The notes below the pieces were generated by a model. That model ran no database searches and was not told where the DNA came from. It was given only the letters and a program-made list of their open reading frames with translations. Positions 1 to 3,972 of a stretch of DNA of 64,000 bases are shown here, piece by piece. Source of the stretch: Halobacillus karajensis (lineage in GTDB: Bacteria > Bacillota > Bacilli > Bacillales > Halobacillaceae). The translations under genes and the position numbers were made by a program. Location: assembly GCF_900108515.1 (NCBI RefSeq), contig NZ_FNWW01000006.1, positions 62,001 through 126,000 on the forward strand, written 5' to 3'. The first letter of the stretch is position 1, and the number at the start of each line of letters is the position of its first letter.

Positions 1-656
1 GAAATGAAGAGTTAAGATCATTGGCTGAAAAGCAGGGGGTGGATTTTCACCACATCAGTTGTGACTTGAGTCGTTTAGATGAGTTGGATAAAGGGCTGGA
101 TCAAATAGCTGAAATCGCATTTCAAAAAGAAACTCATTATGTGTATCTAGTGAACAACGCTGGGGTTATTGATCCCATTGAAACCGTAGGTCAACTGGAA
201 GCAGATGCCGTTCAAAAACATATGCAAGTGAACGTCACAGCTCCTATCCTTTTTGTAAATCGTTGTTTGAAAGAGGCAAATGATCTGGGGGTATCTTTGG
301 GGATTATCAATATTACATCAGGGGCAGCAGAGAAAACGATTCATGGCTGGAGCACCTATAGCAGCTCCAAAGCAGCCATCAATCGTTTTACAGAGACGCT
401 TGCTCTTGAACAGGAAAGTAAAGGGCACACAATTTTTGCCTACAGTCCAGGGGTTATGGATACGGACATGCAAGGGGAGATTCGTTCCTCATCAGAAGAT
501 TCTTTTGCAGATGTAGGGAAATTCAGAAAGTTAAAAGAAGAAGGGGATTTGCGGTCACCAGATGAAGTTGCAGGTGTACTAATGAACCTCCTAAAAGAGC
601 CGAAAAAAATAGAAAACGGCCGAGTTTATAAGCTTTATGATTTAATACGAAAGTAA
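1..656 (+). CDS. SDR-family reductase, 3' part (benzil reductase/YueD-like)
   Basis: Short-chain dehydrogenase/reductase whose 5' end lies outside the window; the frame is open from base 3, and the TTG at 21 is an internal Leu codon, not a start. The N-terminal Gly-rich cofactor loop is therefore not visible. Seen are the structural NNAG motif, a Ser in ITSG, and the catalytic YSSSK (Tyr and Lys). The PGVMDTDMQ segment after the active site and the short C-terminus resemble the (S)-benzoin-forming benzil reductase (YueD) and sepiapterin-reductase-like branch, cytosolic NADPH-dependent carbonyl reductases. The substrate in this organism is unknown. A strong hairpin terminator follows directly. 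Family call is firm, subfamily tentative. Confidence 0.85.
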   Translation, partial: NEELRSLAEKQGVDFHHISCDLSRLDELDKGLDQIAEIAFQKETHYVYLVNNAGVIDPIETVGQLEADAVQKHMQVNVTAPILFVNRCLKEANDLGVSLGIINITSGAAEKTIHGWSTYSSSKAAINRFTETLALEQESKGHTIFAYSPGVMDTDMQGEIRSSSEDSFADVGKFRKLKEEGDLRSPDEVAGVLMNLLKEPKKIENGRVYKLYDLIRK

Positions 657-659
657 GAG

Positions 660-691
660 AAACGAGCGCAGGGCCTTCTGCGCTCGTTTTA
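660..691. terminator. Bidirectional terminator between SDR gene and LD-carboxypeptidase
   Basis: An 11-bp perfect stem (661-671 with 678-688) with a six-base loop and T/A tracts on both sides. It serves the two convergent genes. Confidence 0.85.
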
Positions 692-1666
692 ATATTTCAG
701 CAGTTCGATTGTGGTGTCATGGTTATAGGCTTTCATTTTTACTTGACCGCCAATCGGAAAGGTGAAAATCGGTGTCGTGTGACCAAAGCTTGCATTAGAG
801 ATGACAGGAATGGTAGTAAGCTCCTTCTTTGATTGAATGATTTGTTGAAGGTCTCGGTCTTTCACCTTTGAATCTTTCTGGAAGCGTCCAATAATGATAC
901 CTTTCACTCCATAAAATCCCGGTTGATGAATTAATGATTGTAAATTCCGATCAAAGGTAGGGGCATCTGACAATAGATCATCCTCAAGAAAAAGGATCGT
1001 ATCTTCAAGGGACGGCATGAACTCCGTGCCCTGTAATAAGTTTAGTGTGCATAGGTTTCCACCGATGGATGTACCTTCAGCAATGCCCTCATTGATAACA
1101 TTATACCCGTTATTTTTATGGAATTGACGATTCTCTTGATTCAAATACCAGTGGTCATCACTCCATGATTCAGCAGGTGGAATATTAAACGGGTCTTTTT
1201 CTCTGCAGACTTTTAAAAAGAACTCGTAAGTATAGTCGATTCCTTGTTCCATACCGAAGGAAGAAAAATGAGGGCCGCTATATGTGACAAGTCCTGTTTT
1301 GCGGTAAATACTGTTTGAAAGAGCTGTAATATCAGAATATCCGCAAAAAATTTTAGGGTTCTGGCGAATGACTTGATAATCAAGATCACTTAATAATTGA
1401 TTGCTGTCATACCCTCCGATCGTGGTTAGAATCGCTTTAACGTTTGGGTCGGCGAAGGCATCGTGAATGTCATTCACCCTATGGTCGACAGGAGTTGAAA
1501 TATGATTATACTCTTCAGCAGCATAGGTACCGAATGTCACTTGGAAACCCGCATCATTCAGTCTTCGTACAGCCAGTTTTTGTTGATCCTGATCAATCAT
1601 GGATAAACTTTTAGCAGGGGATAGGATTCTGATTTCATTTCCCTTTCTCAATTTCTTAGGAATCAT
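689..1666 (-). CDS. S66-family LD-carboxypeptidase (MccF-like)
   Basis: 325-residue serine peptidase of family S66, which holds murein tetrapeptide LD-carboxypeptidases (LdcA) and the microcin C immunity peptidase MccF. The nucleophile is Ser111 in the motif GYSDIT. A Glu in the LFLEDDL segment and a His in FGHTTP complete the usual Ser-Glu-His triad. There is no signal peptide, so it acts in the cytosol, either on recycled muropeptides or on aminoacyl-nucleotide-type toxins; the sequence alone does not separate these. A GGAGGG site precedes the ATG at 1666. It stands alone, convergent with the SDR gene. Confidence 0.88.
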   Translation of the reverse strand: MIPKKLRKGNEIRILSPAKSLSMIDQDQQKLAVRRLNDAGFQVTFGTYAAEEYNHISTPVDHRVNDIHDAFADPNVKAILTTIGGYDSNQLLSDLDYQVIRQNPKIFCGYSDITALSNSIYRKTGLVTYSGPHFSSFGMEQGIDYTYEFFLKVCREKDPFNIPPAESWSDDHWYLNQENRQFHKNNGYNVINEGIAEGTSIGGNLCTLNLLQGTEFMPSLEDTILFLEDDLLSDAPTFDRNLQSLIHQPGFYGVKGIIIGRFQKDSKVKDRDLQQIIQSKKELTTIPVISNASFGHTTPIFTFPIGGQVKMKAYNHDTTIELLKY

Positions 1667-1806
1667 TGGATTTCCCTCCTTCGATCAAGTTGAAGTAGTA
1701 AATTACATAACTATACCAAATTGGAAGTTCTTCGTCTATCCGTAATAAGAAATATTTTGAAACTTTTGTCAGTTCCGACCGTATGTATTTAAAAAGGGGT
1801 GATGGT

Positions 1807-1986
1807 ATGTTCACTACAATCCTGGGTCTTGTGCTAGTGATTGCTTTTTTAGTTCTTTTATTCCGTTTTTTTGGTCAATCTACAAGCAGCCGGACGGTCT
1901 CCTCAAAAAAAGAAGAAAGTACGTGGCAACCCGGATTTCATCCATTCGATCATTCGGATGGAGGTGGAGACGGGGGAGGAGAGTAA
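1807..1986 (+). CDS. Small single-pass membrane protein with Gly-rich tail
   Basis: 59 residues from the ATG at 1807, preceded by an AAAAGGGGTG ribosome site; an in-frame ATG at 1783 has none. Residues 4-24 form one hydrophobic helix, followed by a Ser/Lys-rich linker and a tail ending in DGGGDGGGE. I do not recognise a family. The tail resembles flexible ends of small Firmicutes membrane proteins. No operon partner. Confidence 0.6.
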   Translation: MFTTILGLVLVIAFLVLLFRFFGQSTSSRTVSSKKEESTWQPGFHPFDHSDGGGDGGGE

Positions 1987-2130
1987 TCCTCTCTGTAAAA
2001 GAGGGTGATTTTCTTTAGATCAACCTTTGGAATTTGTCATCATAAAGAGAAAGGACCAAATCCAGTCTATTACTCCACCTTCATAAATAAGACCGCATTC
2101 CCCCATTTATAAATTCTCCTCATTTTAGGG

Positions 2131-2160
2131 TTGTATTTTTCAGAAATTTCATCATATAAT
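2131..2160 (+). promoter_or_regulatory. Sigma-A-type promoter of the ABC-F leader
   Basis: TTGTAT (2131-2136), an 18-nt spacer and a perfect TATAAT (2155-2160). Transcription should begin near 2167, leaving a leader of about 225 nt before the ABC-F start codon. Confidence 0.65.
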
Positions 2161-2166
2161 AAACCT

Positions 2167-2391
2167 AATCATAAAAGAAGGGGATGACGTTTAAAGCAAT
2201 GAAGTACTAATCCTGTTGCTATACGAGTATGAGAATAACAATAATCACTCGTTCCAGATACAGGATTGGTCTGCCTTTTTTTATATAAAAAGGTTTCTAT
2301 TGCTTTGAGCGCACTCTTTACGGATGTTGTGGTGTGTTCTAAGGCTTTAGTGAAAGCCAACCTCTCTGGAACGGTTCAGGGAGGTTTTTTT
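2167..2391 (+). promoter_or_regulatory. Attenuator leader with candidate leader peptide, antiterminator and terminator
   Basis: The leader holds mutually exclusive pairings. (1) 2209-2216 pairs with 2260-2267 (8 bp), enclosing a 6-bp hairpin 2223-2228/2247-2252; together these hide 2250-2258. (2) 2250-2258 is a perfect 9-nt complement of 2365-2373 and can act as antiterminator. (3) 2359-2368 pairs with 2377-2386, a 10-bp stem with one G-U followed by seven T, an intrinsic terminator. The 3' arm of the terminator contains the GGGAGG ribosome site of the ABC-F gene, so folding would also block translation. A short reading frame (2184-2210) ends inside stem 1. This is the architecture of ribosome-mediated attenuation known for antibiotic-resistance ABC-F genes such as vmlR; the inducer is unknown. 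Confidence 0.8.
2184..2210 (+). CDS. Candidate leader peptide MTFKAMKY
   Basis: Eight codons (MTFKAMKY, then TAA) just after a purine-rich AAAAGAAGGGG site. The spacing to the ATG at 2184 is very short, and the ATG at 2199 (peptide MKY) is the alternative start. The stop codon overlaps the first base-paired element of the leader, so a ribosome stalled near the end would open stem 2209-2216/2260-2267 and free the antiterminator strand. The role is inferred from position. Confidence 0.5.
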   Translation: MTFKAMKY

Positions 2392-3972
2392 ATGATGAAA
2401 ATGCGCGCGAGAAATGTTCATTATCAAATAGGTGATCGAACGTTATTGAACATCCCCGAGATCAAGATTCATGAAGGGGAAAGAATCGGTTTAGTAGGAC
2501 GGAATGGAGCTGGTAAAAGTCTTCTCCTTCAATATTTAACAGGGGAGCTGGATGTAAAACCGCAGGTGGATTGGCATACCACCTATGGCTTGATGAAACA
2601 ATTGAATGACAGCGAATGGGATTCCTCTATGTTAAGTGGTGGGGAGAAGACGCTGGTGAAGCTTGAACTGTTGTTTAAAGAAGGTCACTCCCTCCTTTTT
2701 CTTGATGAACCGACCAATAACTTGGACTGGTCCCATATAGAGGAACTAGAAAGGAAGCTGCTCTTACACAAAGGGGCATATCTGATCGTTTCCCATGATC
2801 GCAAACTTCTTAATCGCTGTTGTAATAAAATTTGGGAACTGGAAGAGGGAGAATTGAATGAGTATCATGGGGATTATCATTTTTATGAGGCGCAAAAAGC
2901 GCTGAAACTAAAACAGCAATATGAAAAACATGAACAGTATGTAAAAGAAAAGAAAAGGATCGAAGCAAGAATTCGTCAGAAACAGGCCCAATCCAAAGGA
3001 ATGAGGAAGCCTCCTAAACGAATGGGGAATTCAGAATGGCAGCTAGGTAAAAATAAAGCAGCTGCCCAGCAAAAGAAAGTAGAGCGTGTAGGGAAAACAC
3101 TTGAACGAAGATTAGAACGATTAGAGAAACAGGATAAGCCCATGGAGTGGGATCAAGTAAAAATGGAATTTGCTCATGTACACCCATCACACCAAAAGAC
3201 GATAGGCGTCATCAATGATTCTGTGATTAAAGCTGGGGAAAAATTTTTATTTCGTTCACCTAAACTGTTTCTTAAGACGGGTTCCAAAACGGCGTTGATT
3301 GGTGAAAATGGCACAGGCAAATCTACTTTTATCCAGCATCTTCTGAACACAGGGGAGTGGGCAGCCCGAGGAGTGAGAATCGGATATTTCCATCAGGCTT
3401 TGGAAGACCTCCCTCAACAAAAAAACGTCTATGATTTTGTGAGCGATGGGAGTGATATGTCTGAAACTACCATCCGGATTATATTAGCTCGTCTCAGGTT
3501 TAGTGCTGACGAAATGAACAAAACATTAAGCCAGCTGAGTGGAGGGGAGCGTGTAAAACTCTCGCTGGCTAAGTTGATAGCTAGCGGAGCATCCTTATTA
3601 GTAATGGATGAACCAACCAACCACTTAGACCTGGATGCCATTCAAGCATTAGAGAGTTTAGTTAGAGATTTTCCAGGGACGATTCTGTATGTGACTCATG
3701 ATCGCACATTTATTGAAAGAACAGCAGACCAACTGTGGATGATCGAAAAGAGGGAGTTAAAGCCATTCAATGGGACGTGGATACAATGGGAAGAGTATTC
3801 CGTCCACTCGCCGGAAGCAGATGAAGAAATGTATGACCGAATGGCTTTGGAAACGAGATTATCCGAATTAATCAGTCGGTTGAGTATGCCTGGACCAAAG
3901 GATTGTGTAGAAGATTTAGAAACGGAATACAATGAAACCCTAACCAAGTTAAAAAAAATGAGAAACGAATAG
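2392..3972 (+). CDS. ABC-F ribosome-protection ATPase
   Basis: 526 residues from ATG 2392, seven bases after GGGAGG; an upstream in-frame ATG at 2266 lies in the leader and is rejected. Two ABC domains: Walker A GRNGAGKS at 36-43 with LSGGE at 81-85 and LFLDEPTNNLD; second Walker A GENGTGKS, LSQLSGGE, and LVMDEPTNHLD. Only about 40 residues separate Walker A and signature in domain 1, and a Lys/Arg/Gln-rich helical linker of roughly 110 residues lies between the domains. There are no membrane helices. This fits the Vga/Lsa/VmlR-like antibiotic-resistance ABC-F proteins, which bind the ribosomal E site and displace peptidyl-transferase-centre drugs. The attenuator in front supports drug-inducible expression. 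A housekeeping ABC-F role cannot be excluded. Confidence 0.87.
   Translation: MMKMRARNVHYQIGDRTLLNIPEIKIHEGERIGLVGRNGAGKSLLLQYLTGELDVKPQVDWHTTYGLMKQLNDSEWDSSMLSGGEKTLVKLELLFKEGHSLLFLDEPTNNLDWSHIEELERKLLLHKGAYLIVSHDRKLLNRCCNKIWELEEGELNEYHGDYHFYEAQKALKLKQQYEKHEQYVKEKKRIEARIRQKQAQSKGMRKPPKRMGNSEWQLGKNKAAAQQKKVERVGKTLERRLERLEKQDKPMEWDQVKMEFAHVHPSHQKTIGVINDSVIKAGEKFLFRSPKLFLKTGSKTALIGENGTGKSTFIQHLLNTGEWAARGVRIGYFHQALEDLPQQKNVYDFVSDGSDMSETTIRIILARLRFSADEMNKTLSQLSGGERVKLSLAKLIASGASLLVMDEPTNHLDLDAIQALESLVRDFPGTILYVTHDRTFIERTADQLWMIEKRELKPFNGTWIQWEEYSVHSPEADEEMYDRMALETRLSELISRLSMPGPKDCVEDLETEYNETLTKLKKMRNE

Follow-up and report, generated by a model that had tools for sequence, protein, structure and literature searches.

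The leader of an ABC-F ribosome-protection gene in Halobacillus karajensis is very probably a ribosome-sensing attenuator of this intrinsic resistance gene, homologous to the leader of vmlR and resembling that of cplR at its 3′ end, to judge from its sequence and predicted folds. It lies near the start of the stretch that we analyzed (the window: 64,000 nucleotides, forward strand of contig NZ_FNWW01000006.1, positions 62,001 to 126,000; all positions below are those of the window). An initial annotation, made from the letters alone, had proposed a switch of mutually exclusive helices thrown by a drug-stalled ribosome on a leader peptide; this mechanism stands as the best reading, fitting both the relatives and the published systems, except that the frame MTFKAMKY, which it had offered as a working leader peptide, has to be given up. 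The anti-antiterminator (AAT), the 9-bp antiterminator (AT) and the 10-bp terminator that it had named are all present in the window sequence (Table 1), and the terminator 3′ arm does contain the ribosome site of the ABC-F gene. Folding agreed: the leader (2167–2400) reached –85.4 kcal/mol (z = –7.85), which none of 200 dinucleotide shuffles equaled, with AAT, AT and terminator mutually exclusive. One terminator-like site was found in 2000–2450, where shuffles had 0.3 on average.

Table 1. Features of the ABC-F leader and gene (window coordinates; pairings as read in the window sequence)
Feature	Coordinates	Strand	Details
Likely promoter	2131–2160	+	TTGTAT 2131–2136, 18-nt spacer, TATAAT 2155–2160
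Upstream open reading frame (uORF) Shine–Dalgarno (SD) sequence AGAAGGGG	2176–2183	+	GAAGGG conserved in MKY leaders
Helix over uORF start	2193–2306	+	8 bp, 2193–2200/2299–2306, part of the minimum-energy fold
uORF MKY (ATG AAG TAC TAA)	2199–2210	+	Same frame in 18/18 genus loci
AAT stem-loop	2209–2267	+	Outer helix AATCCTGT (2209–2216) with ACAGGATT (2260–2267), 8/8 paired, around inner helix ACGAGT (2223–2228) with ACTCGT (2247–2252), 6/6 paired
AT 5′ arm	2250–2258	+	CGTTCCAGA; partner 2365–2373, 9/9 paired
AT 3′ arm	2365–2373	+	TCTGGAACG; overlaps terminator 5′ arm (2365–2368) and loop
Intrinsic terminator	2359–2391	+	Stem AACCTCTCTG (2359–2368) with CAGGGAGGTT (2377–2386), 10 pairs including one G-U; run of seven T 2385–2391, two of them within the stem
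ABC-F SD GGGAGG	2379–2384	+	Within terminator 3′ arm, 7 nt before ATG
ABC-F ribosome-protection protein, 526 aa, Vga/Lmo0919/CplR-like	2392–3972	+	Start codon ATG at 2392; family profiles, solved chains

In the mechanism that we favor, transcription is expected to begin near 2167 and a ribosome would initiate on the three-codon uORF MKY. Without drug MKY would be finished at once, 2209–2216 would pair with 2260–2267, and the AT arm 2250–2258 would be locked up; the terminator (2359–2386) would then form, RNA polymerase would stop at 2387–2391 and the ABC-F protein would not be made, and in any read-through RNA the ribosome site would be buried in the same hairpin. A drug that stalls the ribosome on the start codon or immediately past it would hold it over about 2184–2214, covering the AAT 5′ arm, and 2250–2258 could then pair with 2365–2373 before the terminator is complete; transcription would continue and GGGAGG would be free. 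The peptide sequence would hardly matter, only the position of the ribosome. Pleuromutilin, lincosamide and streptogramin A would be the expected inducers, given the type of ABC-F protein and the examples of vmlR and cplR.

Constrained folding of the window leader, at eight transcript ends and with three alternative footprints for a ribosome on MKY (2184–2216, 2184–2214 and 2176–2214), reproduced both states. The free leader had an outer AAT probability of 1.00 and an AT probability of 0.00 at all eight ends (inner AAT 0.93); with 2184–2216 blocked, the AT reached 0.96–0.98 at the ends 2374, 2378 and 2382. The same folding was evaluated in 17 of 22 MKY leaders (the other five were dropped for want of CAGGGAGG): 15 of these 17 had AT below 0.1 and AAT above 0.8 in the free state, and a ribosome on the uORF raised AT above 0.5 in 16.

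That VmlR-class genes are controlled by uORF attenuation, as the initial annotation had said, is published. Stalling on uORF(MIN) of vmlR blocks the AAT and lets the AT form, induction is lost in uORF start-codon and SD mutants, the MDN and MDK variants of the uORF are equally functional, and the SD of vmlR is partly masked by a further hairpin, SL-4 (PMC9226507). The tested uORF SD, AGAAGGG (PMC9226507), recurs in the window, which further shares with the Bacillus subtilis vmlR leader a three-codon uORF ending ACTAATC, an AAT hairpin over the stop codon, a conserved GTCTG after the AAT, an AT built from the 3′ side of the AAT and the 5′ side of the terminator, and GGGAGG in the terminator 3′ arm. 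The AT pairing itself differs, being AGGATTAGTC/GACTAATCCT in vmlR and shifted to CGTTCCAGA/TCTGGAACG in the window, and so does the junction with the gene: vmlR starts about 28–31 nt past the leader, behind SL-4, whereas in the window the terminator itself hides the SD. This last arrangement, which had been thought possibly new, is already published for Clostridioides difficile cplR, where the terminator stem sequesters the SD and both layers of attenuation were tested with mutants (PMC10201436); taken together with the uORF logic of vmlR (PMC9226507), the mechanism is therefore not new, and the attenuator is new to the genus Halobacillus as far as our searches show. The window and cplR have in common a short uORF in a 5′ hairpin and an SD-sequestering terminator at the gene start, attenuation in cplR is both transcriptional and translational, as we propose for the window, and CplR is a related ABC-F protein (385.9 bits for its family profile). 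This is a likeness of layout, the cplR uORF reading MRI against MKY in the window. The ABC-F protein of Listeria lmo0919 is also related to that of the window (Lmo0919 being its second-best solved chain), and rli53 is the leader of lmo0919. Homology of the window leader to Listeria rli53 (RF01481) was not shown, at 17.8 bits and E 0.25 for a cut-off of 70.

One of the two layers might do all the work, either translation, with the hairpin masking the ribosome site and termination incidental, or, in reverse, termination only. We think this unlikely. A cplR poly-U mutant was still regulated, so that masking alone sufficed there (PMC10201436), and relatives L009–L014 have an interrupted T run (GGTTTATTT); the window, however, has an uninterrupted T run behind a strong stem, and the vmlR terminator is essential (PMC9226507).

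Nothing in the 64-kb window reached an Rfam gathering score, and it was at relaxed thresholds that the leader matched RF02452 (ncr1575), over the full length of the model (1–212), with 55.2 bits and E 7e–8. The only genome matching RF02452 among 14 controls was that of B. subtilis, and the RF02452 leader of locus L064 is followed by the gene for a protein that matches ExpZ, also called VmlR (6ha8, E 3e–227). These two matches, together with a consensus that includes AUGAUUAACUAA, equal to the uORF(MIN) tested in vmlR (PMC9226507), lead us to identify RF02452 as the vmlR leader, to whose family the leader of the window is thus evidently homologous. RF02452 matched 25 of the 44 family genomes, 8 of them above the cut-off, and in a sample of 397 genomes from the order it matched 151, with 95 above. 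For comparison we parsed 115 leaders, made up of 25 of the 27 family matches and 90 order matches (30 default and 60 hand-chosen among the matches listed), leaving out L051, a probable chance match, and L052.

Rfam files RF02452 as ‘Gene; sRNA’ under the label ‘Bacillus sRNA ncr1575’, and one could suppose a constitutive short RNA, with the terminated 5′ leader as the actual product and any drug response secondary. This is very improbable: a long open reading frame stands behind 113 of the 115 leaders, encoding an ABC-F protein in 107, an MFS protein in four, Lnu(G) in one and an unrelated, distant gene in one (L081); uORF and antiterminator are conserved; and the vmlR member was tested and is an attenuator (PMC9226507). 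An open-access literature search under the name ‘ncr1575’ returned only an unrelated cyanobacterial name.

The frame that would sense the ribosome is MKY. ATGAAGTACTAA, which encodes it, occurred in the leader of all 18 genus loci that we located through the ABC-F protein, and this is the unbiased figure; the set of 23 MKY leaders used below, all picked for having MKY, consists of these 18 (the window's included) and five from other genera of the family. All 23 have TATAAT 20–22 nt upstream of the uORF SD, with a hexamer beginning TTG at 18-nt spacing from the TATAAT in 20, and all have a gap of 16 nt between GAAGGG and the uORF ATG; a generic promoter scan did not list the TTGTAT/TATAAT promoter. 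More widely, M-x-x-stop stood at the expected place in 110 of the 115 parsed leaders, most commonly as MIN (34) or MKY (24). Across these 110 the third codon was mostly NNC followed by TAA and the amino acid varied, which fits a role for the position of the ribosome and not for the peptide. The best purine-rich SD match lay 13–18 nt before the uORF ATG in 106 of the 110 (none was found in four), a spacing much above the usual, which may tune initiation.

The longer frame had some appeal, being open in the window from 2184 with its ATG directly after AAGGGG, and peptide-specific stalling on it would recall macrolide-type leaders. Among the 23 MKY leaders, however, its start codon is ATG in only 5 (one of them followed by an in-frame TAA) and CTG in 18, so that MTFKAMKY is open in only 4; its ATG lies 0 nt past the G run; and a ribosome at its start (2169–2201 blocked) left the AAT intact, with AT at most 0.04. 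Such stalling is thus highly implausible, and we reject MTFKAMKY as the working frame on start-codon conservation and constrained folding; of the tiny frame suggested at the outset, in either of two forms, it is the inner MKY that survives. The uORF start is also covered by the 8-bp helix 2193–2200/2299–2306, which had been overlooked.

Pairing was counted on 20 aligned MKY leaders with 500 shuffles per helix. The AAT outer helix was paired in 99.4% of cells and the inner in 79.2%; jointly, no shuffle reached their percentage paired or their covariation score, and one pair had changed on both sides, a number reached by 114 of the 500. The terminator was paired in 94.0% of cells with two pairs changed on both sides (covariation score reached by 3 shuffles, number of both-side changes by 67), the AT in 95.6% with one such pair, and the helix over the uORF start in 86.3%. 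When the partner was shifted by 1–3 columns, pairing dropped to 20–63% for AAT, terminator, AT and the extra helix, in a control that favors any structure derived from one of the aligned sequences. Covariation among relatives, named at the outset as a check on the switch, was thus found in part: the terminator and the AAT outer helix show supporting changes, and the AT is supported only among distant relatives. Two leaders, L015 and L016, carry extra sequence between AAT and terminator and keep the terminator, the SD arm lying 345 and 299 nt after the start of the uORF SD, compared with 217 in the window.

Support for the AT comes from the wider relatives. For the 110 leaders with a uORF we scored the best pairing of the stretch after the uORF with the terminator 5′ arm and loop against 200 shuffles: P ≤ 0.01 was obtained in 71 and P ≤ 0.05 in 90, many of these leaders being near relatives, so that the 71 are not independent events. 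The pairing has been rewritten between groups, from TCGTTCCAGA/TCTGGAACGA near the window to the vmlR version given above, with ACCTAGAGA/TCTCTAGGT, ACCTGGAGA/TCTCCAGGT, TTCTGGAGA/TCTCCAGAA and more elsewhere. L034 has sequence for two kinds of pairing, the near one (CGTTTCAGA/TCTGGAACG) and, deeper inside, that of vmlR, with GGATTAGTC opposite GATTAATCC. We regard this wholesale rewriting as the best evidence for the antiterminator.

Several results weigh against the attenuator as we read it. In equilibrium folding with 2184–2216 or 2184–2214 blocked, the terminator won again at transcript ends 2386 and 2391 (AT 0.00); with 2176–2214 blocked the AT stayed at 0.67–0.81 at 2386–2391, and at 2430 the terminator was back (0.94, AT 0.03). 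Since the equilibrium returns to the terminator once 2386 has been made, the switch must be kinetic, acting while the terminator is incomplete. Moving the ribosome 15 nt upstream still gave AT above 0.5 in 7 of the 17 MKY leaders, the window itself being clean (0.01). Covariation was not significant in the close clade either for the AT (79 of 500 shuffles as high) or for the helix over the uORF start (133 of 500), and one leader, L049, lacks a good antiterminator (shuffle P = 0.78). The uORF SD is unusually far from its ATG, with a similar distance in the tested vmlR uORF. Finally, RF02452 has a curated cut-off of 60, which the score does not reach, and the leader is thus to be called a homologous relative and not a curated member. 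The second Rfam match, to a PyrR-type attenuator (25 bits over 2270–2393), was dismissed on score and gene context as having next to no probability, with E 0.15, a score far under the cut-off of 54 and below that of RF02452 on the same stretch, and no pyrimidine gene behind.

The leader is a clean, well-conserved example of predicted drug-inducible intrinsic resistance in environmental halophiles, but the wider comparison outweighs this single case, and what most deserves following up is that unrelated resistance genes share such a leader. A family present in so many genomes of the order, and still labeled sRNA in Rfam, could mark drug-inducible resistance genes, and its redrawn antiterminators provide natural variants with which the evolution of such switches could be tested. 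The arguments seem to us evenly balanced as to whether the vmlR-type leader should be seen as a portable sensor of ribosome status, its peptide nearly free, its AT repeatedly redrawn and its SD-to-AUG gap kept at 13–18 nt, that has been coupled to at least three ABC-F branches (VmlR, Vga/CplR-like and Lsa-like), to MFS efflux (4 of 115) and to lincosamide nucleotidylation (1 of 115).

The four leaders before MFS genes (L092, L096, L101 and L110) scored 43.5–58.1 bits against RF02452, under the cut-off, and their antiterminators were mixed (shuffle P from 0.005 to 0.075); two of the genes were tested and matched MFS_1 (E 4e–28 and 2e–26), and the remaining two group with them. The nucleotidylation case is L027, where a leader over the cut-off (1501–1723, + strand, 139.6 bits, uORF MKN) precedes a gene (1762–2562, + strand) for the lincosamide nucleotidyltransferase Lnu(G) (621.9 bits, cut-off 525). 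Four other Lnu(G)-like genes, found in 4 of the 397 order genomes and all under the family cut-off, had no RF02452 match nearby, and the Lnu case hence rests on one locus. A limited open-access search found no paper on an RF02452-type leader before MFS or lnu genes.

Ten loci (L031, L032, L033, L087, L126, L131, L132, L135, L145 and L148) have a vmlR-type leader with MIN 90–204 nt before an Lsa-like ABC-F gene. The Lsa-like clade is distant from VmlR, and of its members only L031 and L122 were named by a family search. In a FastTree tree of the 107 ABC-F fragments, on which AT classes were assigned by a crude text pattern that misplaced at least L108, the window's AT class formed one clade of 17 with support 99, and a distant Lsa-like clade of 14 had the vmlR-type AT in 10 members, often with MIN; with midpoint rooting, the Lsa-like clade and VmlR are separated by ABC-F clades that have other antiterminators. 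Locus L081 has a strong RF02452 leader (148 bits) without a resistance gene, the next long open reading frame lying 377 nt on and being unrelated to ABC-F.

The ABC-F protein of the window scored 430.6 bits against NCBIfam ribo_prot_ABC_F, over the cut-off of 380. It scored 491.4 bits against the Vga family (Vga_all, NF000170), under the cut-off of 725, and is thus Vga-like and not Vga, with the CplR family (cut-off 780) next after Vga; the nearest solved chains were 7nhl (lincosamide-streptogramin A resistance protein) and 7nhn (Lmo0919). A close ABC-F protein (E ≤ 1e–100) was found in 18 of the 22 genomes of the genus, among them the window's own, and a scan of named genomes with the protein turned up no more than 5 loci in Halobacillus, plus 3 distant loci. 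In 26 of 112 related leaders the terminator 3′ arm could serve as SD for an ATG or GTG that follows 7–9 nt on, so that a predicted SD within the terminator is common inside the vmlR-type leader family too; a further 6 of the 112 had only a TTG at SD spacing from the arm, a start that we took as spurious.

Upstream of the leader in the window (1–2160) are a long minus-strand open reading frame (689–1666) and a small one, and several relatives (L035, L037, L040 and L042 were compared) share a divergent open reading frame beginning MGKVTL; as the upstream neighbors differ, leader and ABC-F gene would seem to travel together. The RF02452 match is single in the window's own genome. This genome holds a second resistance-type ABC-F gene (G000:C12; L002:1480–2934), of the Msr family (768.2 bits, cut-off 680), and no Rfam match was found at it; it follows a structured leader (L002:1360–1490, z = –3.61) with the frame GTG CAA TTT TTA TTA TTT TTT TGA, a leader of a different kind from the vmlR type. 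In two further relatives, L009 (G013) and L023 (G003), the match to the ABC-F protein is crossed by one TGA, and these genes are possibly broken.

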